A stretch of DNA of 64,000 nucleotides, from NCBI RefSeq assembly GCF_003664995.1, contig NZ_JFHL01000015.1:1-64000 (forward strand). Direction: 5' to 3'. Source of the stretch: Mesotoga sp. BH458_6_3_2_1. GTDB taxonomy: Bacteria; Thermotogota; Thermotogae; Petrotogales; Kosmotogaceae. Under the pieces are notes generated by a model. It saw nothing but the letters and a program-made list of their open reading frames with translations, was not told the origin of the DNA and made no database searches. Shown piece after piece: positions 11,326 through 28,477 of this stretch. A program made the translations under genes and the position numbers. The first letter of the stretch is position 1, and every line of letters begins with the position of its first letter.

Positions 11326-12099
11326 CTATTTAACAGAGACGCCCGCGTACAATGTCGAAGCGGTTCCATCGTTCTCAACTGTGCTAGAGAACTCTAATTC
11401 TATGAGGGAAACACCTCTTCTTAGAGCTTCGAAATCGAATAACCGCTTTCCGGGTTCGGCGGTTGCCATTGGAAAGTTCGAGATGTCAACGGGAGAGGAT
11501 TGGCTCTTCGAAGGGTCGGTGTACCTATCATCCATGAGTCTCAGAATTTCAGTGTCGCTCCGCACGCTCCATGAAAATCCGGCCGATGAGTCTTGCTCAG
11601 TAGTAACTGAGAATAGATCACCCGGACTTGCGGAACCTGAAGAACTGCCAAGGACCGTTACATAATCAGGAATACACTCACTTAGAGTTCTGTCATCCAC
11701 TTCTACATTGAATACCCTTATGTCAACAGCTTTTTCTTCGCCTTCCCATTCTCTGTAGAGCTTGAAAATGATTGCGAAGCTTCCCAAGGATTCGGGACTG
11801 AATAACCAGGTCACTGTCGAACCGCCACCTTGGACGGCGTTTTCAGATCGGTCAACGGAGATTTCCTTCGAAAATAGTGAAAAAGCGTTAGCTTCTGATG
11901 AATAGTAGTGCCATGTATAGCCTGTCGAAGCGTTCTCCTCAAGTTGGACCTTCAACCGTTGCTCGTAGCTGACCCTGTTTATTATTATCGTGATCTCCGA
12001 TTCTTCTGAATCTCCTATGCCGGCAAGAAGAGTTCCATAGAAAGCCACAAATACAATCGTAATTATAAAAGAGACTCTGTGATAGTTTTTGAAAGCCAT
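11326..12099 (-). CDS. Secreted protein with two chagasin-like (I42) protease-inhibitor domains
   Basis: A 257-residue exported protein: basic start, hydrophobic segment at about 10-26, then two similar beta-rich domains. Domain 1 carries all three loops of the chagasin/ICP family in order: NASTGY (56-61, compare NPTTGY), GGGS (91-94) and REW (117-119, compare RPW). Domain 2 has DSSAGF (170-175) and a later PGKRLF segment but no obvious RPW loop, so it is degenerate or altered. Family members block papain-type cysteine peptidases. It is transcribed divergently from the heliorhodopsin gene. No target peptidase is visible in the window. Confidence 0.72.
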   Translation of the reverse strand: MAFKNYHRVSFIITIVFVAFYGTLLAGIGDSEESEITIIINRVSYEQRLKVQLEENASTGYTWHYYSSEANAFSLFSKEISVDRSENAVQGGGSTVTWLFSPESLGSFAIIFKLYREWEGEEKAVDIRVFNVEVDDRTLSECIPDYVTVLGSSSGSASPGDLFSVTTEQDSSAGFSWSVRSDTEILRLMDDRYTDPSKSQSSPVDISNFPMATAEPGKRLFDFEALRRGVSLIELEFSSTVENDGTASTLYAGVSVK

Positions 12100-12410
12100 A
12101 AGTACCTCCTATTCTGCTTCTGTTAGAAAACCAATCATGTAAGGATTAGACGATCTCCAGAAAGAAAAGATCAAACGAAAAAGAGGATCCAAAGAAGAAA
12201 TCGTTGTCTTCGGCTAGGTTTTTCTCGCATTTTATGGTTAAAGGTAATAGGAAGGGCCGAAATTCAATCGCGACTGCTAGTATAAGAGAAGGTCCGATCA
12301 CGTCTCGCGGCTTTTTCGTCTTTCCATCTGACAATGTGGATTTTTACGACACAACTAATCAATCATTTGTGTTAATATTTCTTCATGATACAAAAAAGGA
12401 GGGAAAGTAA
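12100..12410. promoter_or_regulatory. Divergent intergenic region with an inverted repeat
   Basis: This 311-base gap separates the inhibitor gene from the heliorhodopsin gene. The short ORFs in it lack ribosome sites and family resemblance. ACACAA (12349-12354) and TTGTGT (12367-12372) form a 6-bp inverted repeat 40 to 60 bases before the heliorhodopsin start, a plausible regulator site. No clear consensus promoter is visible. Confidence 0.35.
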
Positions 12411-13175
12411 ATGGAATCCGTTTATAAAAAGCTTCGTATATACAACTTGATAATGGGGCTTCTGCACCTTGTTCAGGGAATCATAATGCTTATAGTAAGC
12501 AACGATTCTTCTTTGACGATTACGAGAAACTACCTGGAGTTCAATCAGGAGATAATGCGGCTGGTTCCCGCAACCGAGAACTTCATGGATCTGAAGATGG
12601 GACCTTTCATCGCGAGTTTCCTCTTCATGTCCGCCATAGCGCATTTCATAGTCTCAACCTTTGGCTTTGGGTGGTACGCAAGAAATCTTCAGAGAGGGAT
12701 TAATTACGCCAGATGGTACGAGTATTCCATCAGCTCTTCGGTGATGATTGTTGCCATTGCAATGTTCTCGGGTATGCTTGACATAGTGAGCCTTATGCTG
12801 CTCTTCACTGTCAACGCTCTAATGAATCTCTTTGGACTTATGATGGAACTTCACAATCAGACAACCGAAAGAACAAACTGGACGGCCTTTATCTTCGGCT
12901 GTATAGCCGGGGCGGTCACATGGATAGCTGTCTTCATATATTTGTTCACATCTCTTGGAAAGGCTAATATTGAGTTCCCGTCTTTTGTTTATGCAGTTCT
13001 CATCACTTTCCTCGTCTTCTTCAACAGCTTTGCGATAAACATGTTCCTTCAGTACAAGAAGATCGGACCCTGGAAGAACTACCTCTTCGGCGAAAGTATG
13101 TATGTTCTTCTCAGCCTTGTTGCCAAGAGTGTCCTTGCGTGGCAGGTTTTCGCCGGAACACTCAGGCCAGTTTGA
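12411..13175 (+). CDS. Heliorhodopsin (retinal-binding seven-helix membrane protein)
   Basis: A 254-residue protein with seven hydrophobic helices. It carries the heliorhodopsin signature in helix 3 (RWYEYS, residues 101-106) and the helix-7 motif SLVAKSVLAWQVF with the retinal Schiff-base lysine at K239. The functional residues known from heliorhodopsin 48C12 are all present with a constant small offset: H19 and H78 (for H23 and H80), S74, counterion E104 (for E107), S109, N135 and S235. The expected topology is inverted, with the N-terminus inside. GGAGG precedes the ATG and a terminator follows at 13198. No retinal-forming oxygenase or carotenoid gene is in the window. Proposed roles in the family are light sensing or regulation; here unknown. 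Confidence 0.94.
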   Translation: MESVYKKLRIYNLIMGLLHLVQGIIMLIVSNDSSLTITRNYLEFNQEIMRLVPATENFMDLKMGPFIASFLFMSAIAHFIVSTFGFGWYARNLQRGINYARWYEYSISSSVMIVAIAMFSGMLDIVSLMLLFTVNALMNLFGLMMELHNQTTERTNWTAFIFGCIAGAVTWIAVFIYLFTSLGKANIEFPSFVYAVLITFLVFFNSFAINMFLQYKKIGPWKNYLFGESMYVLLSLVAKSVLAWQVFAGTLRPV

Positions 13176-13197: not shown

Positions 13198-13220
13198 GAG
13201 GCCCCGAAAGGGGTCTCTTT
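13198..13220 (+). terminator. Terminator after the heliorhodopsin gene
   Basis: GAGGCCCC-GAAA-GGGGTCTC (8-bp stem with one G-T pair, stable GAAA tetraloop) is followed by a short TTT run. It lies between the heliorhodopsin and methyltransferase genes, so the two are at most partly co-transcribed. Confidence 0.75.
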
Positions 13221-13246: not shown

Positions 13247-13984
13247 ATGCCAAATCTCTACTTCTATGCCGGTTCAACAAATCCGGAGTTGTACGAGCTT
13301 CAGAACGAATTGATCGACCCGGAAAGGAAAATAGAGAAGGTCATGGAAGAGTTCTGCGATTTCGAAAGCAGTGTGATTGTAGATGTTGGAGCAGGCTCAG
13401 GCTTTCACTCACATATGTACGCAAGCACTGCCTCTATGGTTTACGCCGTGGAGCCGGATTCGGGAATGCTAAAGCAACTGATTTCAAGGCAAGCCCGTGA
13501 CTTCAGATCTAACTTCTGTGTGGTGAAGGGATTTGCCGAGGACCTTCCATTTAAATCTGATCTGGCAGATATCGTGCACGCTAGACTTGCGTATTTCTTT
13601 GGTCCGCCCATGAAATACACAGAAAGTTGTGAAGAGGGGATTGTGGAAGTCAAAAGGGTACTGAAGACCGACGGGTATTTCTTCAATATTCAGAACAATT
13701 ACTCTTCAGGCCAGTATGCGGAGTTCCTCGAGCTCTCATATGGTCGGGACCTTAAAAACCTTCAAAAAGAGATTTCCGATTACTTCGTATCTAGGGGCTT
13801 TTTGGAAAGGGTTGTGAGAACAGAATGGAGAGCAAATAACCGCGGAGAAATCGAAAAGGCCCTTACGCTAGAATTTCCGATTGAGAAGGTGGGGCAAATC
13901 ATGAAAGCCTTCTCCGGCAACGAGTTCTCACACGACTTTTCAATATTCGTCTTCAGGAAAAGGATCAGCGGCGAAAATGGTTAG
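13247..13984 (+). CDS. Class I SAM-dependent methyltransferase
   Basis: A 245-residue soluble protein with the SAM-binding motif I VIVDVGAGSGFHS near residue 43, an acidic residue after the second strand (AVEPDSGML), and a later DIVHARLAYFF segment. The substrate cannot be told. It has a strong AGGAGGG ribosome site. The nearest upstream gene is the heliorhodopsin, but a terminator lies between them, so a functional link is only suggested by position. Confidence 0.8.
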   Translation: MPNLYFYAGSTNPELYELQNELIDPERKIEKVMEEFCDFESSVIVDVGAGSGFHSHMYASTASMVYAVEPDSGMLKQLISRQARDFRSNFCVVKGFAEDLPFKSDLADIVHARLAYFFGPPMKYTESCEEGIVEVKRVLKTDGYFFNIQNNYSSGQYAEFLELSYGRDLKNLQKEISDYFVSRGFLERVVRTEWRANNRGEIEKALTLEFPIEKVGQIMKAFSGNEFSHDFSIFVFRKRISGENG

Positions 13985-14210: not shown

Positions 14211-14702
14211 ATGGCCCTGCAATTCATCTCTCTACTGGTAATCTCCTTTATCATCTGGCTGGGCTTTACTGGGAGTTTTGCTCTTGCCGAGATACTTCTT
14301 GGGTTCGTGGTTTCGATTGTCGTCGCCGTTATTTTAAGCAAGTATTCAAGATTTCGGATCGGTCTGGATTTTCCTGTTCGGCTCTTCAGATTCGTGTTCT
14401 CCTTCCTTCCAATCTTCATTTTCGAAATGGTTAAGGCAAATATCGATGTGGCCAAAAGAGTCTTGAATCCTTCTCTTCCGATAAACCCTTCGATGGTCGA
14501 AGTTGAAACGGATTTGAAAGGGGAGATCTCGAAGCTTACTCTGGCCAACTCAATAACTCTCACACCGGGAACCTTGACCGTTGACATTGGTGAGGACCGT
14601 CTCTTGGTTCACTGGATAGACAAGAAGGCCGATGAGCCGGAGAGAATAAGAGAAGAGATCTCGGGAAAGTTTGAGAAGAGAATAGGGGGGATCTTCGAAT
14701 GA
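14211..14702 (+). CDS. mrpE: Na+/H+ antiporter subunit MrpE-like
   Basis: A 163-residue protein with two or three N-terminal membrane helices and a soluble C-terminal part. The segment ITLTPGTLTVDI is a hallmark of MrpE/MnhE. It opens a 14-gene operon in which nearly every gene overlaps its neighbour by 4 bases or abuts it. In Mrp antiporters the E subunit takes part in assembly and ion exchange. In Mbh/Mbx-type complexes the same subunit belongs to the sodium-translocating module. Confidence 0.9.
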   Translation: MALQFISLLVISFIIWLGFTGSFALAEILLGFVVSIVVAVILSKYSRFRIGLDFPVRLFRFVFSFLPIFIFEMVKANIDVAKRVLNPSLPINPSMVEVETDLKGEISKLTLANSITLTPGTLTVDIGEDRLLVHWIDKKADEPERIREEISGKFEKRIGGIFE

Positions 14703-14953
14703 TAGGTTTCTCCATCTTCTTTTCACTAATACTCATGGGCGCTGGACTTACTCTCTATAGATTGTTGAGAGGGCCGACGGTTCCCGACAGAGTCGCAGCA
14801 CTGGACATATTGAACGTGATGATTACAAGTGCGATAGTGTTATTTTCTCTAATCGACGGCAATCCTCTCTTTCTAGATATAGCGCTTGTTTATGCTGCGC
14901 TCTCCTTTCTTGAGACCATAGTGGTTGCCAGGTATCTGGAGGGGAGAAGATGA
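14699..14953 (+). CDS. mrpF: Na+/H+ antiporter subunit MrpF-like
   Basis: An 84-residue protein with three membrane helices. The conserved LLRGPTVPDRVAALD loop between helices 1 and 2 identifies MrpF/MnhF. It overlaps the preceding stop by 4 bases (ATGA). Part of the ion-translocating module of the complex. Confidence 0.9.
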   Translation: MIGFSIFFSLILMGAGLTLYRLLRGPTVPDRVAALDILNVMITSAIVLFSLIDGNPLFLDIALVYAALSFLETIVVARYLEGRR

Positions 14954-15294
14954 TCATACTAGATATTCTGGGGTATGCGCTCTTATCTATAGGCGCATTT
15001 TTCTTCTTCATGGGAGGCCTTGGAATGCTGAGGATGCCGGACGTTTTCAACAGGCTGCAGGCCGGGACGAAGGCAACTACACTGGGCTCGTTCTCCGTGA
15101 TACTCGGTGTAGGACTGATAAATCCGCAGTGGCTATTGAAGACTGTAATCATAGTCGCCTTCATTGCTATTACAAATCCTGTAGGGAGTTCAGCGATCGC
15201 CAGAACGGCACTGAAGAAGGGAATAACACCGATAGCTTATGAGGAATCTCATAAGGAAGCAGACGGTCTCCCAGAAGGTGGTGAGGAAGAGTGA
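14950..15294 (+). CDS. mrpG: Na+/H+ antiporter subunit MrpG-like
   Basis: A 114-residue protein with three membrane helices and the MrpG/MnhG hallmark GMLRMPDVFNRLQAGTKATTLG. The C-terminal tail is acidic and soluble. Four-base overlap with the neighbouring genes on both sides. Part of the sodium/proton antiporter module. Confidence 0.9.
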   Translation: MIILDILGYALLSIGAFFFFMGGLGMLRMPDVFNRLQAGTKATTLGSFSVILGVGLINPQWLLKTVIIVAFIAITNPVGSSAIARTALKKGITPIAYEESHKEADGLPEGGEEE

Positions 15295-15533
15295 ACGTAT
15301 TCTCGTTCATAATCGGAGTAGTAATGGTGGGACTGGCTATTTTCGCGATTGAAACGAAGAAGCTGCTGACTTCCGTGATAATGCTCTCCGCAATGAGTCT
15401 TCTGTCTGTCATACTGTTTGTTATTATGAAGGCTCCGGATGTCGCAATAACTGAAGCTTCTGTTGGAGCCGGCCTCACCACGGCCATATTTCTCCTCTCC
15501 CTTAGGAAGCTGAAACGAGCTGATGTAGAATGA
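15291..15533 (+). CDS. MbhD-like antiporter subunit (DUF4040)
   Basis: An 80-residue protein with about three helices. The conserved APDVAITEASVGAGLTTAIFL stretch corresponds to the part of MrpA that in Mbh and Mbx complexes is a separate subunit (MbhD). Starts with GTG overlapping the mrpG stop. It is evidence that the operon follows the split Mbh/Mbx arrangement rather than that of a canonical stand-alone Mrp antiporter. Confidence 0.85.
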   Translation: MNVFSFIIGVVMVGLAIFAIETKKLLTSVIMLSAMSLLSVILFVIMKAPDVAITEASVGAGLTTAIFLLSLRKLKRADVE

Positions 15534-16288
15534 AGCGGATGATATCTGCACTTATAGCACTTCTTTTCTTCTTCATGATCGTAACCGTTCTGAATTCCGA
15601 CTCTTCCGATTCTATGGGGATTCCAAGATATGGTGAAGTGAAGCTCTCCGAAAGAGTCTCTGCGAAATACATCGAGAAATCGGTGAATGGGAATGAAGAT
15701 GAGATCAACTTTGGAATAACTGCAGACGCAGAGACTGGTTCGGCTAACATGGTTACTTCGATTGTCGTCAATTACAGGTCATTCGACACCCTCGGAGAGG
15801 TGACGGTACTCTTCATTTCAGCGACCGGAGTTGGACTGATTCTTGGAGGGGGAAGAAAGAGGGTAGGTTCGGCAATATCCGTCAGTCCCGTTGTCAAGAT
15901 CGCCTCTCGCGTGATTGCCCCATTGCTTATGGTGCTGGGGATATACGTATTCGTTCATGGCCATCTGACGCCGGGTGGAGGATTTCCCGGAGGAGCGATA
16001 ATCGCGGCCGGTTTCTTGCTGCTCGTTGCGGTCGACGATGAAAAGAGGGCTTCAAAGGGACTGAAGATACTGGAGGGTACAATGGGACTTCTCTACGTTC
16101 TCATAGGTATAGCCGGCCTGTTGATCTCGGGTTCCTTCCTTAAGAATTTCCTTCCCACCGGTGTGGTAGGAGAGCTTTTCAGCGCAGGAATTATACCGGT
16201 TGTTTACTCGGTAATCGGTCTCAAGGTTGGAGCAGAGCTTTCCGGAATTGTGGATGACTTCATTTCGGAAGGGGGCGATGAGGCATGA
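15530..16288 (+). CDS. mrpB: MrpB-like subunit with MbhE-type N-terminal extension
   Basis: A 252-residue protein. The N-terminal third has one helix plus a soluble stretch, and NMVTSIVVNYRSFDTLGE near residue 73, as in MbhE. The rest is an MnhB/MrpB domain with HGHLTPGGGFPGGAIIAAGFLLL. In other systems the two parts can be separate genes, so this is a natural fusion. Four-base overlap with both neighbours. Confidence 0.88.
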   Translation: MKRMISALIALLFFFMIVTVLNSDSSDSMGIPRYGEVKLSERVSAKYIEKSVNGNEDEINFGITADAETGSANMVTSIVVNYRSFDTLGEVTVLFISATGVGLILGGGRKRVGSAISVSPVVKIASRVIAPLLMVLGIYVFVHGHLTPGGGFPGGAIIAAGFLLLVAVDDEKRASKGLKILEGTMGLLYVLIGIAGLLISGSFLKNFLPTGVVGELFSAGIIPVVYSVIGLKVGAELSGIVDDFISEGGDEA

Positions 16289-16635
16289 TCCAGTACTTTT
16301 CTATGATGCTGGTCGCCGTTGGCTTATACGGCCTTCTTTCGCAGAAGAATCTCGTTAAGCTAATTATCTCTTTGAATATAGCAGAGATCGGAGTCAACCT
16401 CTTCATTGTCTCTATAGGTTACATAGAAGGGGGAGCGGCTCCTATTCTTTCTTCGGTCAGCGACAACTCGTCCCTTCTCTTTGTCGATCCTCTTCCCCAG
16501 GCTCTAGTTCTTACTTCTATAGTTATCGGGGTGGGCGTAACGGCCCTGGCCCTTTCGCTTATTGTTTCTGTAAGCAAATCAAGGGGCACGATAGATATCT
16601 CGGAGCTCTCGAGCGGGGGAGGTGATTCCGAATGA
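16285..16635 (+). CDS. mrpC: MrpC / NuoK-like antiporter subunit
   Basis: A 116-residue protein with three helices related to complex I NuoK. LVKLIISLNIAEIGVNLFIV carries the conserved membrane glutamate, and DPLPQALVLTSIVIGVGVTAL is the MrpC hallmark. Part of the ion-translocating chain of the complex. Confidence 0.9.
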   Translation: MIQYFSMMLVAVGLYGLLSQKNLVKLIISLNIAEIGVNLFIVSIGYIEGGAAPILSSVSDNSSLLFVDPLPQALVLTSIVIGVGVTALALSLIVSVSKSRGTIDISELSSGGGDSE

Positions 16636-18080
16636 ATCCCGTATGGTTAATAGCAATACCCCTCGCGCTAGCCTTTGTGAGCGCCTTCTGGAGAAGTGTC
16701 TCCGGTTGGGCTCTTCTTGTAGCCGCCTTCTTCAACGCCTTCGCCGGAGTCTTCGGGGTAATGTTCCTCACTGCTACAAGCTTCTCTATTGGCGGGTGGA
16801 AGGCTCCATATGGTATCAACTTGCTCGTTAACGACGCTACGAAGCTTTTACTTCCCGTCGCAAATATACTCTTTCTCTTTGCAGTGTTGAGTTACCTACG
16901 AAAATGGGAAGAGACTAAGAAGTACTCGGTGGTTTTCTTGGTAGCTCTTGCCTCATTGAACGGGATCCTTTTGACCAACGATCTCTTCAACCTCTTCGTT
17001 TTCCTCGAGATCGCCGGAATCTCCGCCTATCTTCTGGCATCTACTGGAGAAGGCAGCGGTTCAAAGGTTGCATCTTTCAAGTATCTGATGATAGGATCGG
17101 TAGGATCGCTGCTGTATCTTCTTGGGGTCGCTGTTCTTTACGGGGCGGCTGGCACTCTAAACATTTCCGAACTTGCTGCCAGGATATCTTCCGGTCAGAT
17201 CAGCGGCGATGTCACGTTAGTTTCTTCACTTCTTATTGTTGCGGGTCTCGGTGTTGAATCGAAATTGCTTCCCTTTAATGGTTGGGTTCCCGACGTTCTG
17301 ACGAAATCGTCGCGTATTGCTACGCTGGTTCTAGCGTCGGTCTATCCGCTCGCAATGGTGAATGCCTTTTCAAAGGTCTTACTCGCCGTAGGAGACGATC
17401 GCGTGATGAGTCTCGTCGTTCTTCTTGGGACGGCAACTGTCCTTGTAGGCGAGGTCCTTGCTTTCAGTCAGAAGTCGTTGAGAAGAACGCTTGCCTATTC
17501 AAGCATCGCTCAGTCGGGCCTGGCGATCTTTCTTGTCGGGATCGGGAGCGTTGAGGCTATTACGGGATCGATAATGCTTCTCATAAACAACGCTCTTTCG
17601 AAATTTATGCTCTTCTCCGTTGACGACAAGGTTATCGATGAAGTTGGTCGAGACGATAGAGATACTCTTAACGGGTTCGGCCGAAAGTCACCGATAGTCG
17701 GAGTAATATTTGTTGTCTCCGCGTTTTCTATCGCAGGTATGCCTCTCTTCTTCGGATTTAGGGGAAAGCTCAACGCGATATCGGCAAGCTTCGAAACCTC
17801 GATGGCCGTTCCTATAATAATTCTCATTGCAGCGGCCATCGAAGTTACATATTACGTCAGGTGGATCTTCACCTTCTTCAAGCCGGTCGGAACAGCTCAG
17901 ACGCCTGAGAAGAGAATGGTCCCATCGGTGGAGTTCCTTGCCTTCGGGCTTGTGCTAAGTACGGTCATAGTCTTCCTCGGGGTAAGCTCGGGGGAGGCCT
18001 TCATGATGTTTGAGAGAGCCGCGGATTCTCTTGTAAATGGCATTTTGGCAATTGGAAAGGCCATTCTGGGAGGGATGTAG
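16632..18080 (+). CDS. mrpD: MrpD / NuoN-like ion-translocating subunit
   Basis: A 482-residue polytopic protein of the proton-conducting transporter family (NuoL/M/N, MrpA/D). FVFLEIAGISAYLL carries the helix-5 glutamate, and VESKLLPFNGWVPDVLTKS carries the lysine-bearing helix-7 region followed by the loop typical of this family. Related to the antiporter-like subunit H of Mbh/Mbx. Followed immediately by a second member of the family. Confidence 0.9.
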   Translation: MNPVWLIAIPLALAFVSAFWRSVSGWALLVAAFFNAFAGVFGVMFLTATSFSIGGWKAPYGINLLVNDATKLLLPVANILFLFAVLSYLRKWEETKKYSVVFLVALASLNGILLTNDLFNLFVFLEIAGISAYLLASTGEGSGSKVASFKYLMIGSVGSLLYLLGVAVLYGAAGTLNISELAARISSGQISGDVTLVSSLLIVAGLGVESKLLPFNGWVPDVLTKSSRIATLVLASVYPLAMVNAFSKVLLAVGDDRVMSLVVLLGTATVLVGEVLAFSQKSLRRTLAYSSIAQSGLAIFLVGIGSVEAITGSIMLLINNALSKFMLFSVDDKVIDEVGRDDRDTLNGFGRKSPIVGVIFVVSAFSIAGMPLFFGFRGKLNAISASFETSMAVPIIILIAAAIEVTYYVRWIFTFFKPVGTAQTPEKRMVPSVEFLAFGLVLSTVIVFLGVSSGEAFMMFERAADSLVNGILAIGKAILGGM

Positions 18081-19913
18081 ATGAATATACTCTTTTTGAT
18101 AGCGGCATCTCTCTTTGCCGCTCCGTTGTTCTTTCTGGTTTCAAAACTGAAGAAGAACGCGGCCTATGTTGCGTACGCCGCGTTCCAGATATTCATCTTT
18201 GTCTATGTGTTTTTCTGGGGAGGAAGGGGAGTTTCATATGAAGTGGTCGGGATAACGGGCAGACTCAACTTCAACTTCTCTATGACCCCCGTTAACTGGT
18301 TTTTCGCTTCGATAGTGATGCTAATAGTATCCACGACTGCGGTCTTCATGCTTCCTCTAAAGAAGAGTTCCGTCAAGGTCTTTCTGCTTAGTCTTGTAAC
18401 TGCGGGAGCGATCGGAGCGGTCTTCTCGGCCGATTTCCTTACTTTGATGATCTTCTGGGAGATTTCCACATGGGCCTCGCTGATTCTCATAATTCAAGAC
18501 AAGGAAAAGTCGACTGGAGAGGCGATAAAGTATGCCGCTATCGCAGCGGTGGGAAGTTATTCAATGTTGTTCGCGATCTTCTACATGGACAGCAGGCTGG
18601 GGACTGTCGAGTTCTCCAGTGTGGCTTTGAAGATCGAGAGCCAACCGATCGGAGTTCAGCTCACGATTTTCACGGCCTTGGCAATAATGGTCCTTGCAAA
18701 GATGGGAACCTTCCCTCTTCATACCTGGCTTAGGGGTTCTCATTCTTCTGCACCAGACGAATTCAGCCCCATTCTTTCCGGAGGACTCACAAAACTCGGT
18801 GGTTTTCTACTCTTAACAATGACGATTGCTCTTCCTTCCTTTAAGGTTTTCGGCACTCTTCCTATATTCAATGGCGTTCCGATCGTAAATTATGGATTTG
18901 CCCTCCTTGGTGGCATCTCGATAGTCGTGGGAACGGTTATGGCTATACGAATGGAAGACGCCAAAGAACTTATCGCCTTTTCGACTGTGAGCAATTCAGG
19001 CTATATAGTGCTGGCCCTCTCCATTGGTGGAACCTACGCAACTGCCGGCGGGATGATGCACATTCTCAACCACGCAATGGCATCTGCCGCCATGTTCATG
19101 GCGATAGCTGCGGTAGCCTACAGGACAAGGACTACGAAAATGCACGAGATGGGAGGACTCATAGTTAAGATGCCCGTCACCTTCGCCGTTTATCTCGTTG
19201 CGATTATTTCGGTAGCTGGAATTCCCCCGACAAGCGGATTCGTATCAAAGTGGTTGATCTATCAGCAGCTAGTGCAGAACGGTTTGCCGTTTCTGGCCTT
19301 TGCCGCTTTCTTTGGAAGCATAGGGTCATTCATGTATGTCTTCAAACCTCTAGCGGGGATTTTCCTGGGACAGCTGAAGCCCGAACATGGAAAAGTCAAA
19401 GAAGCTCCATTAATTATGCTTGTTCCGATGGCCTTTCTTACACTTCTTACTGTTTTCTGGGGAGTCTTCCCGAGCAACGCCATCAGATCGATCAACAGGA
19501 TCACGGAATCGATTGGCGGAGGAACTGTCGACGTGACTTTCTCGAGAATCGTCGCGCTAACTGGGGAATGGGATTCAGTATTGGTCACCACTGTCTTCGC
19601 GATAGGCTTCGTGATATCGTTGTTGATCTTCATGCGCGCAAAGAAGGCCAGACAGGTAGATCTTCTAGACAATTACACGGGCGGGGATTTTCTATACACC
19701 GCAGAGCTTTATCACTTTTCATACAGGATGTACAGACCGTTCGACAGGTTATTCGAAAAGTGGCCTTCGATGGAAAACTGGCTTTTATCGTCTTCTGAAA
19801 AGATTAAGGAGCTTGGAGCCCTGTTCAAGGCAGTCTTCTTCAACCGGAATCCTCAGGTATACATTGCTTTGACTGTTATCGTGCTTCTTGGCGCCTTCTG
19901 GTGGTTGAGGTGA
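18081..19913 (+). CDS. Second NuoL/MrpA-like ion-translocating subunit
   Basis: A 610-residue polytopic protein of the same family as the previous gene. LMIFWEISTWASLILI has the helix-5 Glu, and LAKMGTFPLHTWLRGSH the helix-7 Lys and histidine loop. About 90 extra C-terminal residues include an amphipathic segment and a final helix (VYIALTVIVLLGAFWWL), reminiscent of the lateral helix of NuoL. Two antiporter-like subunits in tandem are a feature of Mbx-type rather than simple Mbh complexes. Confidence 0.88.
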   Translation: MNILFLIAASLFAAPLFFLVSKLKKNAAYVAYAAFQIFIFVYVFFWGGRGVSYEVVGITGRLNFNFSMTPVNWFFASIVMLIVSTTAVFMLPLKKSSVKVFLLSLVTAGAIGAVFSADFLTLMIFWEISTWASLILIIQDKEKSTGEAIKYAAIAAVGSYSMLFAIFYMDSRLGTVEFSSVALKIESQPIGVQLTIFTALAIMVLAKMGTFPLHTWLRGSHSSAPDEFSPILSGGLTKLGGFLLLTMTIALPSFKVFGTLPIFNGVPIVNYGFALLGGISIVVGTVMAIRMEDAKELIAFSTVSNSGYIVLALSIGGTYATAGGMMHILNHAMASAAMFMAIAAVAYRTRTTKMHEMGGLIVKMPVTFAVYLVAIISVAGIPPTSGFVSKWLIYQQLVQNGLPFLAFAAFFGSIGSFMYVFKPLAGIFLGQLKPEHGKVKEAPLIMLVPMAFLTLLTVFWGVFPSNAIRSINRITESIGGGTVDVTFSRIVALTGEWDSVLVTTVFAIGFVISLLIFMRAKKARQVDLLDNYTGGDFLYTAELYHFSYRMYRPFDRLFEKWPSMENWLLSSSEKIKELGALFKAVFFNRNPQVYIALTVIVLLGAFWWLR

Positions 19914-19917
19914 TGAC

Positions 19918-20826
19918 ATGCTTATGAATATCGTAATCACAATACTTTCGGGGATCGCGCTTCTAGTAGTCGCGTTTGTATATACCGTAACCCTTGAAGG
20001 AATTGCAAGAAAGATAGAAGCAAGAATTCAGAGGAGATACGGCCCACCTTTCTGGCAGAACTTCATAGATATCTTCAAATCGCTGACGAAGCACTCGATT
20101 TCCCACGGCTTCATCTTCGACTTTGGAATACTCATGGCTTTGGGGGGGACAATTGCGACGGTTTTCTTCATCCCGGCAGGCAGTCTCGCCGTCTTTCCGG
20201 GAATCGACAACGTCTTTGTAGTGATCTATCTTCTGGCAATTGGTCTTCTTGGAATGGCGATGTCTGCCGTGGGGTCTGGAAATCCAAACGCTTCCATAGG
20301 GATCGGAAGGGCACTGGCCCAGATGCTCGGATATGAGCTTCCCTTCATGATAGTCATCCTCGGTGTCTTCTTCCACCATGGAACTTCATCTCTATCCGAT
20401 TTGGTAAGCATTCAGATAGCGCAGGGCGCTTACAACGTTTGGTTAATGCCAATTGGTGGAGTAGTTGCCTTCATTTCTCTGATAGGGATGCTTGGAAAGA
20501 AGCCCTTTGACACGTTTATTGCACCGGCCGAGATAGCTTCCGGTCCACTTGTGGAGTACAGCGGAAAGTATCTCGGTATGCTGATGATTCAGCACGCATT
20601 CGCGACATTCATTGAGATCGGATTGTTTGTGAATCTCTTCCTCGGAGGCGGTAGGACTTTATGGGAATTCCTCTTGAAGTTCCTTATAGTGTACTTCTCA
20701 ATAGTGATCATCTCCGCCACTATTCCAAGATTCAGGGTCGAGCAGGCGATCAAATTCTACTGGAAATGGCCGCTCATTCTCTCCTTCGTTCAAGTAATCA
20801 TAGTGGTCTTTGTGATGGGGAGGTGA
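19918..20826 (+). CDS. NuoH-like membrane subunit of the respiratory complex
   Basis: A 302-residue polytopic protein homologous to NuoH/MbhM, which links the membrane arm to the hydrophilic module. Recognisable parts are GIARKIEARIQRRYGPPFWQN at the start of the cytosolic loop, GSGNPNASIGIGRALAQMLGYELPF, and KKPFDTFIAPAEIASGPLVEYSG with the conserved acidic residues. In complex I this subunit forms part of the quinone chamber; in Mbh/Mbx-type enzymes no quinone is used. Confidence 0.9.
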   Translation: MLMNIVITILSGIALLVVAFVYTVTLEGIARKIEARIQRRYGPPFWQNFIDIFKSLTKHSISHGFIFDFGILMALGGTIATVFFIPAGSLAVFPGIDNVFVVIYLLAIGLLGMAMSAVGSGNPNASIGIGRALAQMLGYELPFMIVILGVFFHHGTSSLSDLVSIQIAQGAYNVWLMPIGGVVAFISLIGMLGKKPFDTFIAPAEIASGPLVEYSGKYLGMLMIQHAFATFIEIGLFVNLFLGGGRTLWEFLLKFLIVYFSIVIISATIPRFRVEQAIKFYWKWPLILSFVQVIIVVFVMGR

Positions 20827-20830
20827 CGGC

Positions 20831-21370
20831 ATGAGCGAAGAACGCAAATCATGGGAAAAAGTGGCAAATATGCTCAGATCGCGCTCGCTCTGGATGCTTT
20901 ATTACTGTACCGGATGTGGAGCTATAGAGCTGCCTCCAACGATGACTTCGCGCTTCGATATGGAGCGTCTCGGTATTGGGCCTATGGCAACTCCTAGGCA
21001 GGCCGACATTCTGTTAATCACCGGATACCTAAGTACTAAGACTCTCAGGAGAGTCATTTATTCGTACGAACAGATGCAGTCGCCGAAGTATATAGTCGGC
21101 TTTGGTTCTTGCACGTTGAATGGGGGAATATATTACGACTCTTACGCAACGATAAACAAACTGGATCTCTATGTGCCGGTGGATCTTTATCTGGCGGGTT
21201 GTATGCCACGCCCGGAGGCTATAGTAAGCGGATTCACCGCGCTGATGAGCAAGATTGACAAAGGAGAGGCCAACGGTTGGAAAGAGTATCAGGAGAAGAA
21301 CGATTGGTACAAGAGGAATCAGATAGAGGCTCTCGGGGAGGTGTATGTACACGATGAATTCCATGAATGA
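20831..21370 (+). CDS. NuoB-like [4Fe-4S] subunit
   Basis: A 179-residue subunit that holds the terminal cluster near the active site. The four ligands are visible: the CTGCGAIE pair (CxxC), the Cys of GFGSCTLNGG, and the Cys of GCMPRPEA. The CxxC arrangement is that of Mbh/Mbx-type J subunits rather than the CC pair of complex I. Likely couples the NuoI-like ferredoxin module to the NuoD-like active-site subunit. Confidence 0.9.
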   Translation: MSEERKSWEKVANMLRSRSLWMLYYCTGCGAIELPPTMTSRFDMERLGIGPMATPRQADILLITGYLSTKTLRRVIYSYEQMQSPKYIVGFGSCTLNGGIYYDSYATINKLDLYVPVDLYLAGCMPRPEAIVSGFTALMSKIDKGEANGWKEYQEKNDWYKRNQIEALGEVYVHDEFHE

Positions 21371-21869
21371 GATACTGGGAGAAGTTAAGACTATTGCCGG
21401 AGAATTATCGGTTAAGGAAGTAACTGCCCGAGAGTCAATCATATCCGTTGAAGCTTCGAGGTTGAATGCGGTTCTTGAGCTCTTAAAGAGAAGAGGCTTC
21501 TCTCATCTCTCACTAATAACCGGCGTCGACAGGATAAAAGACGGTATTTTCGAGGTGTTCTACACCCTCTTCAGATGGGAGACAGGAGAGACTCTGTTGG
21601 TGAAGAGCTCGATTAGTAGAGATGAACCCGTCATTAGTACCGTGATGCACCTTTGGCCTACTGCAAGGTTTTATGAAAGGGACGTTCACGAGTTCTTCGG
21701 TATAGTGTTCGATGGTAACCCCGACCTTAAACCACTCATACTCGAAAACTGGAAGGAAATGCCGCCGATGAGAAAGGACTTCGATCCGCAGAAATACTCA
21801 AACGAGCACTTCCCGGACAGGCACTACGAAGCCCAGTTTCTGGCAGAAGGGGGCGATGAAAATGAGTAA
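21345..21869 (+). CDS. NuoC-like 30-kDa subunit
   Basis: A 174-residue subunit homologous to NuoC/MbhK. The late segment LWPTARFYERDVHEFFGIVF followed by PLILENWKEMPPMRKDF is the family signature. It overlaps the NuoB-like gene by 26 bases and the NuoD-like gene by 14 bases. A structural subunit of the hydrophilic module with no cofactor of its own. Confidence 0.88.
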   Translation: MYTMNSMNEILGEVKTIAGELSVKEVTARESIISVEASRLNAVLELLKRRGFSHLSLITGVDRIKDGIFEVFYTLFRWETGETLLVKSSISRDEPVISTVMHLWPTARFYERDVHEFFGIVFDGNPDLKPLILENWKEMPPMRKDFDPQKYSNEHFPDRHYEAQFLAEGGDENE

Positions 21870-22968
21870 GGAAGTCAAGCTCTTCTTGGGCCCTAACCAC
21901 CCCGGGATGCACGGCAATTCAAGCGTTCACCTTTACGTAGAGGGGGACACCGTCGTCAGATCTAGACTTGTTCCTGGCTTCCTTCACAGGGGCTTCGAGA
22001 AATTGATGGAGAGAAGAGGCTGGATGCAAAACCTGGCCCTGATCCCTCGAATTTGCGTGCCCGAACCGGACATTAACGAAATGGTTTATGCGATGGCAGT
22101 CGAGGCGCTCACCGGGACGGAAGTGCCAGAAAGAGCTCACTGGATTAGGATGATAATTCTCGAGCTGGCGAGAATCGCTTCCCATCTCATGGCTTTAGGT
22201 GGAGTCGGTGGATCTACCGGTCTCTACACAATTTCACACTGGACGCTTGCTGACAGGGACAGGATTCTCGATATCTTCGAGAAGATTACCGGCGCAAGGA
22301 TCTATCACATGTATATCGTTCCTGGAGGCGTAAGAAAGGATCTGCCCGAAGGAATCGAGTCTGAGATAGTTGAATTCCTGGATTATATAGAAAGCAGGAA
22401 CGATGAATTTGAGAACTTACTGCTGAAAAACAGGATAATCAGAACGAGGACAGAGGGTCTCGCGCTTCTAACTAGAGAAGAAGCGCTGGAAATAGGTGTA
22501 ACCGGAGTGGGACTGAGAGCTACAGGTTTGCCCTACGACATAAGAAAGATCGATCCATATGCGAGGTATGACAGTGTGGTCTTCGACATTCCCACCGCAA
22601 CTGAAGGTGACGCCTTTGCCAGATTCACCTTGAAATACTATGAGATGATGCAGAGTATCAGGATACTGAGACAGGTACTTGAGAAAATGCCAGCGGGACC
22701 TGTAAACGCAAAGATCTCATCTGGCAGCGCGCTCAGATGGAGGGTGCCGGAGGGGACCGTCTATACTCACATAGAGTCATCCAGAGGCGAGTACGGATAC
22801 TTCGTTGTCTCAGATGGAGGGGAAAGACCTTACAGGATAAACGTCAGAGGGGCTTCCTTTCCTCAGGGTTTGTATGGTGTGGAGAAACTGCTAGCAGGTA
22901 CAAGAATAGAAGATGTCGCTCTCTGGCTAACCACTATGGACTTCTGCCCGCCAGAGATCGACAGATAG
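21856..22968 (+). CDS. NuoD-like large subunit lacking half of the NiFe cysteines
   Basis: A 370-residue homologue of NuoD and of [NiFe]-hydrogenase large subunits (LGPNHPGMHG, PGFLHRGFEKLMERR). A hydrogenase needs two CxxC pairs for NiFe. Here only one Cys of each pair remains: C67 in RICVPEPD and C364 in MDFCPPEIDR. This excludes a normal NiFe site and matches Mbx/Mbs-type complexes, which keep two of the four cysteines. The substrate of the active site is therefore open: polysulfide, a direct electron relay, or another acceptor. Confidence 0.88.
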   Translation: MKMSKEVKLFLGPNHPGMHGNSSVHLYVEGDTVVRSRLVPGFLHRGFEKLMERRGWMQNLALIPRICVPEPDINEMVYAMAVEALTGTEVPERAHWIRMIILELARIASHLMALGGVGGSTGLYTISHWTLADRDRILDIFEKITGARIYHMYIVPGGVRKDLPEGIESEIVEFLDYIESRNDEFENLLLKNRIIRTRTEGLALLTREEALEIGVTGVGLRATGLPYDIRKIDPYARYDSVVFDIPTATEGDAFARFTLKYYEMMQSIRILRQVLEKMPAGPVNAKISSGSALRWRVPEGTVYTHIESSRGEYGYFVVSDGGERPYRINVRGASFPQGLYGVEKLLAGTRIEDVALWLTTMDFCPPEIDR

Positions 22969-22980
22969 GGGGCTGGTAAC

Positions 22981-24810
22981 GTGAGCGTATATGATGGTTT
23001 CAAGAAGACTTTCTGGGGTCCTACTATAGCCTGGAAGAGACTGTTCACAAAGCCGGTCACTATAAAAGTTCCACAGGTTTATCGCGAAGCAGCAGAAAGA
23101 TACAGGGGGTTCCACGTCAACGACTGGGACAAATGTTCGGGATGTGGAACTTGCGCAAAGATATGTCCCACCGACGCAATCAAGATGGTGGCAGTAGATA
23201 TTACAGTAGATATCGGAAAGAAGGCACAGAGACCGGCTATAGACTATGGAAGATGTTCGTTCTGTGGAATCTGTGTCGACATATGCACTACGGGTTCACT
23301 TAACATGACTAGGGAGTATATTCATATATCCGACGACCCCGATAGTTTTTTCTTTCTACCAGATGAAACTGGCATCCATCACGATACTCCACCAATAGGC
23401 TATTCACGGGATGAAAACTCGGAGCTACTCGATCTGGAAAGGGTAGAAATGGAAGAGCTCCCGGGCGAGGAGAGAGTTCAGTCCTTTGTAGAATTTGTCA
23501 AGGGGTTTTCGAGAGAGCAGGCCATAGCAGAGGCGGCAAGATGTGTGGACTGCGAACTCTGCATAGATGCCTGCCCGGCAAAAATGGATATTCCGAGATA
23601 CATAGAGAGTATCTTCAAGAACGATACAAAAGAGGGCGTCGAATGGATGTATAGGACCAATCCTTTGCCGTCGATTTGTGGGCGCGTCTGTACCCACAAG
23701 TGTGAGACTGTCTGTTCAATAGGCAACAGGGGAGAGCCCGTTGCTATAAGATGGCTGAAGAGATATCTCATGGATCAGGAGAAGACGGAAGACGTTATAA
23801 GATACGCGAAAGAACAAGAGATAATCAAAAAGGGAAGCGGCAGAGTTGCGATAATAGGCGGTGGTCCGGCCGGCCTGTCTGCCGCATACTACCTTTCGCT
23901 TATGGGTTACTCTGTTACAGTTTATGAAAGTAAAGAGCATGCGGGCGGTGTCATGAGGTACGGTATACCACGCTATCGTCTCCCAGATGAAGCACTGGAT
24001 GGAGACATAAAAGTAATAGAAGCCTTGGGTGTGAAGATCGAATGCGGCAAGACAGTTGGCAGGGATATCACTGTAGAACAGCTTCATGAGAAGTTCGATG
24101 CGGTTTTTCTCGGAACGGGGTTCATTAAGGGAAGAAGCACCGGAGTCAAAGGAGCTGACAGCGAAGGGGTTTTGATGGCAATGCCTCTTCTAGAATCTAT
24201 TCGCGATTATCTCAGAGGGGATTCAAGCAAGAAACCGGAGGTGCCGGAAAGCCTCGTCGTGATAGGTGGAGGCAACGTTGCAATGGACGTGGCTCGAAGT
24301 GTTGCCCGTCTACAGAAAATGGAAGGAATGCCGGTAGATGTCAAAGTAACATGCCTCGAATCCTCGGATGAGATGCCAGCCGACCTTGAGGAGATAGTGG
24401 AAGGAAGGGAAGAGGGAATAAAGTACTTTCCCAGTCGGGGCCCGAAGGAGGTTTGTCTAGAGGGCGGCAAAGTCTTCGGATTATCTACCATTGCCTGTAC
24501 AGCAGTCTTTGATAAAGACGGAAGATTCAACCCAAGATTCGATGAAAGCGACGAAAGTATGATCGAAGGAAAAATGATTGTTGAGGCAATAGGTCAGGCG
24601 CCGGACTATGATTATCTTCCGGAATCAATTAGAGAGAAGATACAGTTCATAAGGGGAAGAATACTCGTTAACGAGAAAGGCCAAACTGATCTTCCATGGC
24701 TTTTCGCTGGAGGAGATATCGTGAATGGCCCAGATATCATTCATGGCGTTGCCGACGGTCACAAAGCGGCAGTGGGTATCGACGAGTTCCTTAGTAAAGG
24801 GGTGAAGTAA
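22981..24810 (+). CDS. Fusion of NuoI-like ferredoxin and GltD/NfnB-like FAD-NAD(P)H oxidoreductase
   Basis: A 609-residue fusion. Residues 50-105 are a two-cluster ferredoxin domain (C52-55-58-62 and C92-95-98-102) as in NuoI/MbhN. Residues about 165-265 are the GltD-type iron-sulfur N-domain with C188-191-194-198 and C233-237-241-245. Residues 288 onward are the FAD domain (VAIIGGGPAGLSAAYYL), an inserted nucleotide domain (VVIGGGNVAMDVARSV) and the C-terminal FAD contact LFAGGDIVNGPDIIHGVADG. It would wire a pyridine nucleotide directly to the membrane complex, replacing NuoEFG. GTG start. Related proteins in other Thermotogales are commonly annotated as glutamate synthase small chain, but no large chain is present here. 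Confidence 0.9.
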   Translation: MSVYDGFKKTFWGPTIAWKRLFTKPVTIKVPQVYREAAERYRGFHVNDWDKCSGCGTCAKICPTDAIKMVAVDITVDIGKKAQRPAIDYGRCSFCGICVDICTTGSLNMTREYIHISDDPDSFFFLPDETGIHHDTPPIGYSRDENSELLDLERVEMEELPGEERVQSFVEFVKGFSREQAIAEAARCVDCELCIDACPAKMDIPRYIESIFKNDTKEGVEWMYRTNPLPSICGRVCTHKCETVCSIGNRGEPVAIRWLKRYLMDQEKTEDVIRYAKEQEIIKKGSGRVAIIGGGPAGLSAAYYLSLMGYSVTVYESKEHAGGVMRYGIPRYRLPDEALDGDIKVIEALGVKIECGKTVGRDITVEQLHEKFDAVFLGTGFIKGRSTGVKGADSEGVLMAMPLLESIRDYLRGDSSKKPEVPESLVVIGGGNVAMDVARSVARLQKMEGMPVDVKVTCLESSDEMPADLEEIVEGREEGIKYFPSRGPKEVCLEGGKVFGLSTIACTAVFDKDGRFNPRFDESDESMIEGKMIVEAIGQAPDYDYLPESIREKIQFIRGRILVNEKGQTDLPWLFAGGDIVNGPDIIHGVADGHKAAVGIDEFLSKGVK

Positions 24811-25307
24811 TGAGCGATTTCAAGAGCATTCTGGAGGTAGCACTCAGTTTCGAAAAATCAGGCCGGGAGTTCTATAAAAATAATATGCAGAGGGTCAATC
24901 AAATCGTTGCCAAAAAGACCTTCGAATATCTTATGGAAATGGAAGACTCTCATGTGAAATTCATCGAGGGTATGATCGAAGCTCTTGAAGATAACAAGAA
25001 GGTTGATTTTGCCCTGCAGGAAGAAGCGGATGAGATATTCGTAGAGAGACTGGAATCGCAGGCGCTCTCAGACAACTCTTACAGCAGCGATCTTGCCGAT
25101 CTTTCGATTTTAAGAATGGCCTACCTCATTGAGAGGGATTTTGTTGATTATTACGAAAATGCCTCCAAAAAGGTTGAAGACATGAGTGCAAAGAAACTCA
25201 TGGTAAAGCTAATGAACTGGGAAAAAGGACATGTTTCTCTTGTCAGAAACCTCATGGAAAAGATATACGAAAAGAACGCAATTGATCTTGGATTCTATCC
25301 CTTTTGA
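24810..25307 (+). CDS. Ferritin-like / rubrerythrin-type di-iron protein
   Basis: A 165-residue all-helical protein with two helical pairs. EMEDSH (ExxH) and NWEKGH (ExxH) plus upstream glutamates in SFEKSGREFY and YLIERDFVDYY fit a di-iron four-helix bundle. It has no C-terminal rubredoxin domain. It is the last gene of the Mrp/Mbx operon, and its ATG overlaps the previous stop by one base. Possible roles are peroxide scavenging or iron storage close to the oxygen-sensitive clusters; not shown. Confidence 0.8.
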   Translation: MSDFKSILEVALSFEKSGREFYKNNMQRVNQIVAKKTFEYLMEMEDSHVKFIEGMIEALEDNKKVDFALQEEADEIFVERLESQALSDNSYSSDLADLSILRMAYLIERDFVDYYENASKKVEDMSAKKLMVKLMNWEKGHVSLVRNLMEKIYEKNAIDLGFYPF

Positions 25308-27868: not shown

Positions 27869-28477
27869 TCATCTCTCAATCAGTTCCACTCCCGCGCTTC
27901 TGAACTCCTCAATAGTTCTCTGAACATCGCCCTGGTTAGCCTCAACCCCTTTTGTTCCGTTTATTATTACATTTATCTTGAAGCCTGCCAGGAGCGCATC
28001 GTGAACGGTATATTTTAGGCAGTAGTCAAGAGCAAGCCCGCAAATGTCCAGTTCCTCGATTCCAAGCGTCTTGAGAAGTCCGTCGGTTCCAAGTTGTGTT
28101 CCATCGTTCTCCTTGAAGATCGAGTAGCTGTCGACATGTCGGTGAGTTCCCTTTCTTACTATATAGTCGAAGCGCCAACTCTCTATGTCTTGATGAAACT
28201 CCGCTCCAAGACTTCCCTGCTGACAGTGAACAGGCCACAAAACGGGGCCGATCCCTTTCCCGTTGTCAAACGGTGTGAAGGGTTCTTTTCCATGGTTGAC
28301 CGCAAAGCTCATGTGATTCGACGGATGCCAGTCCTGGCCTGCAACTATCACCTTGTACACGGGGTCTTTCATTGCTCTGTTTATCACTTCGTTGATCTCG
28401 CTCGCATTGCTTACGGGCAGTGCACCGGTTTCATAGAAGTCGTTTTGAACATCTACGACTAGCAGTGCCTTACGCAT
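27869..28477 (-). CDS. pncA: Nicotinamidase (isochorismatase family)
   Basis: Hydrolyses nicotinamide to nicotinate for NAD salvage. The 202-residue protein has the Asp-Lys-Cys triad: D9 in VVDVQNDF, K109 in IVRKGTH and C153 in LDYCLKYT. QDWHPSNH provides the metal-binding Asp and His residues, and the WPVHC segment is typical of nicotinamidases as opposed to isochorismatases. It follows the glycosidase-like gene by 24 bases on the same strand and probably forms an operon with it and the DUF4438 gene. Confidence 0.9.
   Translation of the reverse strand: MRKALLVVDVQNDFYETGALPVSNASEINEVINRAMKDPVYKVIVAGQDWHPSNHMSFAVNHGKEPFTPFDNGKGIGPVLWPVHCQQGSLGAEFHQDIESWRFDYIVRKGTHRHVDSYSIFKENDGTQLGTDGLLKTLGIEELDICGLALDYCLKYTVHDALLAGFKINVIINGTKGVEANQGDVQRTIEEFRSAGVELIER

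Follow-up and report, generated by a model that had tools for sequence, protein, structure and literature searches.

In the accessible part of Kim et al, 2021 (PMC7807009), 13 heliorhodopsins were expressed in and purified from E. coli, among them that of Mesotoga infera, which absorbs maximally (lambda max) at 539 nm. The closest heliorhodopsin (HeR) of solved structure to the protein described here is TaHeR of the Thermoplasmatales archaeon SG8-52-1 (PDB 6is6, 7u55), and a more distant branch is represented by the actinobacterial 48C12 (PDB 6su3, 6uh3). Work on other prokaryotic HeRs has found light-dependent binding and up-regulation of a neighbour-encoded enzyme or transporter, namely a glutamine synthetase (PMC9529153), a photolyase (PMC9769723) and a multidrug ABC transporter (PMC11109279). 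Heliorhodopsins have also been argued to be absent from diderms, by Flores-Uribe, 2019 (going by the title as cited) and by Bulzu et al, 2021 (PMC8612252), and this absence has been used to reason about function.

We analyzed a 64,000-nucleotide stretch of DNA (the window), which corresponds to contig C15 of a 3.23-Mb genome that is 99.98% complete. A sequence-only reading of this DNA had proposed that it carries an intact gene for a true heliorhodopsin, with counterparts of all 48C12 active-site residues, in a Thermotogota host. The gene and its key codon are:

12411..13175, + strand: heliorhodopsin gene, encoding a seven-helix opsin of 254 aa (ORF with ATG start, HMM and PDB matches, AlphaFold2 model)
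13125..13127, + strand: AAG codon of K239, the Schiff-base lysine (K241 of 48C12), placed by alignment

The 254-aa protein matches Pfam PF18761 Heliorhodopsin (E=1.4e-101; 339.3 bits, cut-off 26.7) and the NCBIfam equivalog NF038020 'heliorhodopsin HeR' (E=1.4e-107; 358.8 bits, cut-off 100), in both cases far above the cut-off. Its nearest solved chains are TaHeR (6is6, E=4e-80) and 48C12 (6su3, E=3.7e-58), whereas the top type-1 rhodopsin match in the PDB reaches only E=0.051. The nearest named records, 'Kosmotogaceae bacterium UBA1373' and 'Thermotogales bacterium Thermo_02' (83-85% identity), place the host in the Mesotoga lineage. These data confirm that the ORF encodes a heliorhodopsin, and that the sequence-only reading was correct on its family, frame and host.

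In a pairwise alignment, the window protein and 48C12 are identical at 111 of 245 positions (45%). Mapping residues position by position along this alignment, we found that all eight active-site residues are identical (window/48C12: H19/H23, S74/S76, H78/H80, E104/E107, S109/S112, N135/N138, S235/S237 and K239/K241). They comprise the TM3 glutamate counterion, the pocket residues H23, S76, H80, S112 and N138 (48C12 numbering), and the SxxxK motif of TM7 with the Schiff-base lysine (S235-L-V-A-K239). E104, S235 and K239 do not vary across 27 aligned relatives, in which H19, S74 and H78 are almost fully conserved. An AlphaFold2 model, built from an alignment of the window and locus proteins, has a pLDDT of 88.5 and shows seven long helices and a beta-stranded AB loop (strands 34-45 and 50-62). 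When this predicted model was searched with Foldseek, HeR structures ranked first (TM 0.88-0.94) and were separated by a gap from type-1 rhodopsins (0.52-0.68) among the matches listed. The best partner was TaHeR (TM 0.94, 53% identity), which has the same pocket and differs in its archaeal host. Neither sequence nor fold is therefore nearer to type-1 microbial rhodopsins than to HeRs, and by homology to known HeRs an inverted membrane orientation would be expected.

M. infera HeR belongs to the same genus-level lineage as the window protein, to which congeners are 83-97% identical. Retinal binding has thus effectively been shown for an orthologue and is predicted for the window protein itself; given the 539-nm pigment, failure of the latter to bind retinal would be very unlikely. 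Because the M. infera protein has already been purified, a heliorhodopsin gene in this genus is no new discovery.

The phylogeny that the sequence-only reading had suggested as a check places the window protein among heliorhodopsins, in an anaerobe/archaeal-type branch. With 48C12 as outgroup, the Mesotoga proteins group together with full support, nested within a wide assemblage of HeRs from anaerobic Chloroflexota, Thermoplasmata, Dojkabacteria and their relatives. The HeRs of Anaerolineae, Dojkabacteria and Thermoplasmata, which come from anaerobic settings, are 53-62% identical to the window protein, and in most cases no retinal-synthesis genes were found with them either; their hosts differ in being monoderm or archaeal. 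Proteins from three other Thermotogota genomes (G010, G014 and G076) form a clade that stands apart from the Mesotoga clade, the sister group of the latter lacking resolution. Constraining all Thermotogota proteins to one clade gave a tree of higher likelihood, which an AU test did not reject (p=0.907); on these sequences, one acquisition and two are both possible. Transport by viral HeRs (Hososhima et al, eLife, as cited in the accessible part of PMC11109279) raises the idea that the window protein is a light-gated proton or ion transporter, like some giant-virus heliorhodopsins. We consider this very improbable, since the HeRs closest to the window protein are prokaryotic ones (TaHeR, 53%; 48C12, about 43-45%), for which the literature covered reports no transport, and no viral relative was found in IMG/VR or phage records. 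The lack of a viral relative in these collections also led us to reject a phage or mobile origin of the gene.

Around the heliorhodopsin gene, the window contains:

11326..12099, - strand: gene for a chagasin-type (I42) peptidase inhibitor, divergent from the heliorhodopsin gene; a neighbour, not shown to be part of the system
12369..12380, + strand: GTGTTAATATTT block, 31-42 nt 5' of the start codon
12398..12403, + strand: ribosome-binding site GGAGGG, 7 nt 5' of the ATG
13198..13217, + strand: intrinsic-terminator-like hairpin directly 3' of the gene, with 8 pairs, a tetraloop and a T-rich tail (hairpin scan and congener comparison)
13247..13984, + strand: gene for a class I SAM-dependent methyltransferase, a neighbour beyond the terminator

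A heliorhodopsin in this host might reflect contamination by a monoderm contig misassembled into the genome, and there is a precedent in a Myxococcota HeR contig shown to be a contaminant in the accessible part of Bulzu et al (PMC8612252). Here, however, a second genome (G001), with a main contig of 2,974,229 bp, shares the gene order of the window (LacI, ROK, KDPG aldolase, I42 inhibitor, heliorhodopsin, methyltransferase, Mnh operon), and the heliorhodopsin gene is also found in a one-contig genome (G008). The G+C content (0.446) and GC3 (0.576) of the gene are no outliers against the window means (0.467 and 0.509; sd 0.026 and 0.044). Synteny in near-closed genomes excludes contamination, to which we assign a negligible probability, and the gene is native to its host.

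The sequence-only reading had also noted a GGAGG motif and a terminator of the gene's own. The motif is present as GGAGGG, and a purine-rich GGAGG/GGGGG block is kept in all six genus members that carry the gene. The terminator was borne out in part: by number alone, terminator-like hairpins do not exceed chance (1 in the sequence, 1.1 in shuffled versions), but the hairpin with its T-rich tail recurs 3' of the heliorhodopsin gene in the window genome (G000), G001, G004 and G007, in the last with a different sequence and at another genomic place. Five of six congeners retain the GTGTTAATATTT block despite differing upstream genes. This block may represent an extended -10 promoter element; it was not reported by a consensus promoter scan. 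With this block, the ribosome-binding site and the 3' hairpin, the heliorhodopsin gene looks monocistronic.

The methyltransferase gene adjoins the HeR gene only in G000, G001 and G004, and the HeR neighbours differ between these three genomes, G008, G003 and G007. We rejected both the methyltransferase and the Mnh/complex-I-like operon as operon partners, as the terminator and a non-conserved junction intervene. In no relative outside the genus is the HeR gene flanked by I42, methyltransferase or Mnh genes. Since no neighbour or operon partner is conserved across the genus, no partner can be named; in this, the Mesotoga gene is unlike those HeR genes that have a neighbouring enzyme or transporter.

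The long operon that starts about 1 kb 3' of the heliorhodopsin gene (14211-25304, + strand) encodes MnhE/MnhB, two Proton_antipo_M-like proteins, NADHdh, Oxidored_q6, 30-kDa and 49-kDa complex I subunits, a 609-aa Fe-S/flavin oxidoreductase and rubrerythrin, and by gene content it looks like an Mbx/Mbh-type complex. The I42 inhibitor gene is divergent to the HeR gene at two genomic places of the genus (window 11326-12099, - strand; L095:1011-1766; L091:9787-10554). The inhibitor of G007 (L095) is 37% identical to the window copy, against 85% for HeR, and the inhibitor frame is broken in G001. In G008, the HeR gene adjoins a nicotinamidase-like (isochorismatase family) gene (L092:7706-8320), whose 82% identical orthologue lies at 27869-28477 of the window without a HeR neighbour, indicating that the HeR gene has moved within the genus.

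Six of the ten genomes of the genus carry the heliorhodopsin gene; it was not found in G002, G006 and G009, which are fragmented assemblies, or in G005, which is 98% complete. Across the phylum Thermotogota, the gene scores above the Pfam cut-off in 9 of 103 genomes and 3 of 38 genera: the Mesotoga-like genus, a second genus of the same family (G010 and G014, with proteins ~51% identical to the window protein) and one genus of another family (G076). The survey of Kosmotogales proposed by the sequence-only reading therefore finds the gene well represented in this genus, but not confined to Kosmotogales, as G076 has an intact copy and its congener G050 a remnant. In G050, about 31 first codons are left beside a PriA-like gene (L097:7090-7182); 199 bp are identical to G076 (L124), followed by a deletion of the remainder of the gene and of the neighbouring SNF symporter. 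The G004 copy has a frameshift near codon 229, 5' of the lysine codon (L094:9780-9872), and is either a pseudogene or the product of a sequencing error. A gene that is broken in G004 and not found in four of ten congeners appears to be dispensable.

This patchy distribution, the frameshift in G004, the 31-codon remnant in G050 and the differing genomic places inside the genus would all fit a gene gained laterally, with little function, that drifts in and out of Thermotogota lineages. The coding sequences argue otherwise: dN/dS is 0.062 for G000-G001 and 0.048 for G008-G003, in a comparison limited to close pairs because dS is saturated in deeper ones. The gene is thus under strong purifying selection (dN/dS about 0.05), the proteins of intact genus members are 81-97% identical to one another, and ribosome-binding site and terminator are kept. 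We therefore judge such drift to be decidedly unlikely; vertical retention in much of the genus is the most likely history.

The sequence-only reading expected no retinal synthesis in this host. Consistent with this, we found no member of the phytoene/squalene synthase family in the genus (controls positive in 7 of 14), and no RPE65-type carotenoid cleavage oxygenase in 21 relatives including the genus (controls positive in 2). A search for BCD (Blh) gave no match, yet no control genome matched either, so its absence is not proven. What did not hold is that this situation is peculiar to the host. Among the 33 genomes with the nearest heliorhodopsins, which include G076, phytoene synthase was found in six and RPE65 in one, and HeR without recognisable retinal synthesis is usual in the anaerobic branch. 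The sole RPE65-type oxygenase among these HeR-bearing relatives is that of G130 (Cryosericum, L130), in which no phytoene synthase was found. Because the cell encodes no known retinal pathway, scavenged retinal is the most likely source. The lack of a known pathway in the host and in most genomes with the nearest HeRs, and the anaerobic life of these hosts, would also suit a chromophore-free and light-independent opsin, such as a sensor of membrane state or of a lipophile, with K239 kept for some other reason. Such an opsin seems unlikely, however, as all retinal-pocket residues are kept under strong purifying selection and the orthologue forms a 539-nm pigment in the accessible part of PMC7807009.

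The host was further claimed to be a diderm. The same genome encodes BamA/Omp85 (G000 C2:360652-361593, an 823-aa ORF with POTRA and Omp85 domains), and LpxC was found in 0 of 21 Thermotogota genomes, with positive controls. These markers point most readily to a diderm host that lacks LPS. Such an envelope agrees with the toga known from Thermotogales, where genes for OmpA and porins have been described, OmpA in Mesotoga prima as well (PMC3387000). The argument that HeRs are absent from diderms is indeed published but depends on a threshold: as given in the accessible part of Bulzu et al, 2021 (PMC8612252), a diderm call takes at least 10 of 27 outer-membrane markers. An LPS-less diderm might miss this threshold, and Thermotogota presumably fall under it. 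Since an intact heliorhodopsin gene and an Omp85/BamA gene occur together in genomes at 99% completeness, the rule would be more accurate if it claimed, at most, absence from LPS-bearing diderms. The gene contradicts the published restriction of heliorhodopsins to monoderms. In the open-access literature we found no paper joining heliorhodopsin with Thermotog* or with Fervidobacterium, and the conflict with the monoderm rule, the occurrence in three Thermotogota genera and the recurrent decay (frameshift, deletion remnant) appear to be without discussion in open papers.

Our preferred reading, which we hold with a probability of roughly 70%, is a stand-alone regulatory green-light rhodopsin that uses scavenged retinal and has a partner encoded elsewhere. 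The opsin would sit in the cytoplasmic membrane and bind all-trans retinal, taken up after release by other organisms, at K239 with E104 as counterion. Green light (~540 nm) would isomerise the retinal and set off a slow photocycle, and the resulting conformational change would act on a cytoplasmic partner protein, making the protein sensory or regulatory rather than an ion pump. We infer the photocycle, the signalling, the partner, the light dependence and the scavenging of retinal; the partner is placed elsewhere because no operon partner lies beside the Mesotoga gene. A point against a regulatory rhodopsin is that anaerobic sediments and digesters, as habitats, are for the most part dark. 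We consider a role without chromophore, an ion-channel function and near-neutral drift each less probable.

A bolder proposal is that a HeR maintained by an LPS-less diderm in dark, anaerobic surroundings needs neither retinal nor light and acts as a membrane-sensing apo-opsin. We think it unlikely; if true, it would overturn two views of the family, 'monoderm-only' and 'always a photoreceptor'. Mesotoga is cultured and has congeners with intact, broken and apparently absent copies, which provide natural comparison strains, and the genus is therefore suited to asking what heliorhodopsins do in organisms unable to make retinal. The value of the finding lies not in a new kind of protein, but in a corrected monoderm rule and a culturable test system.
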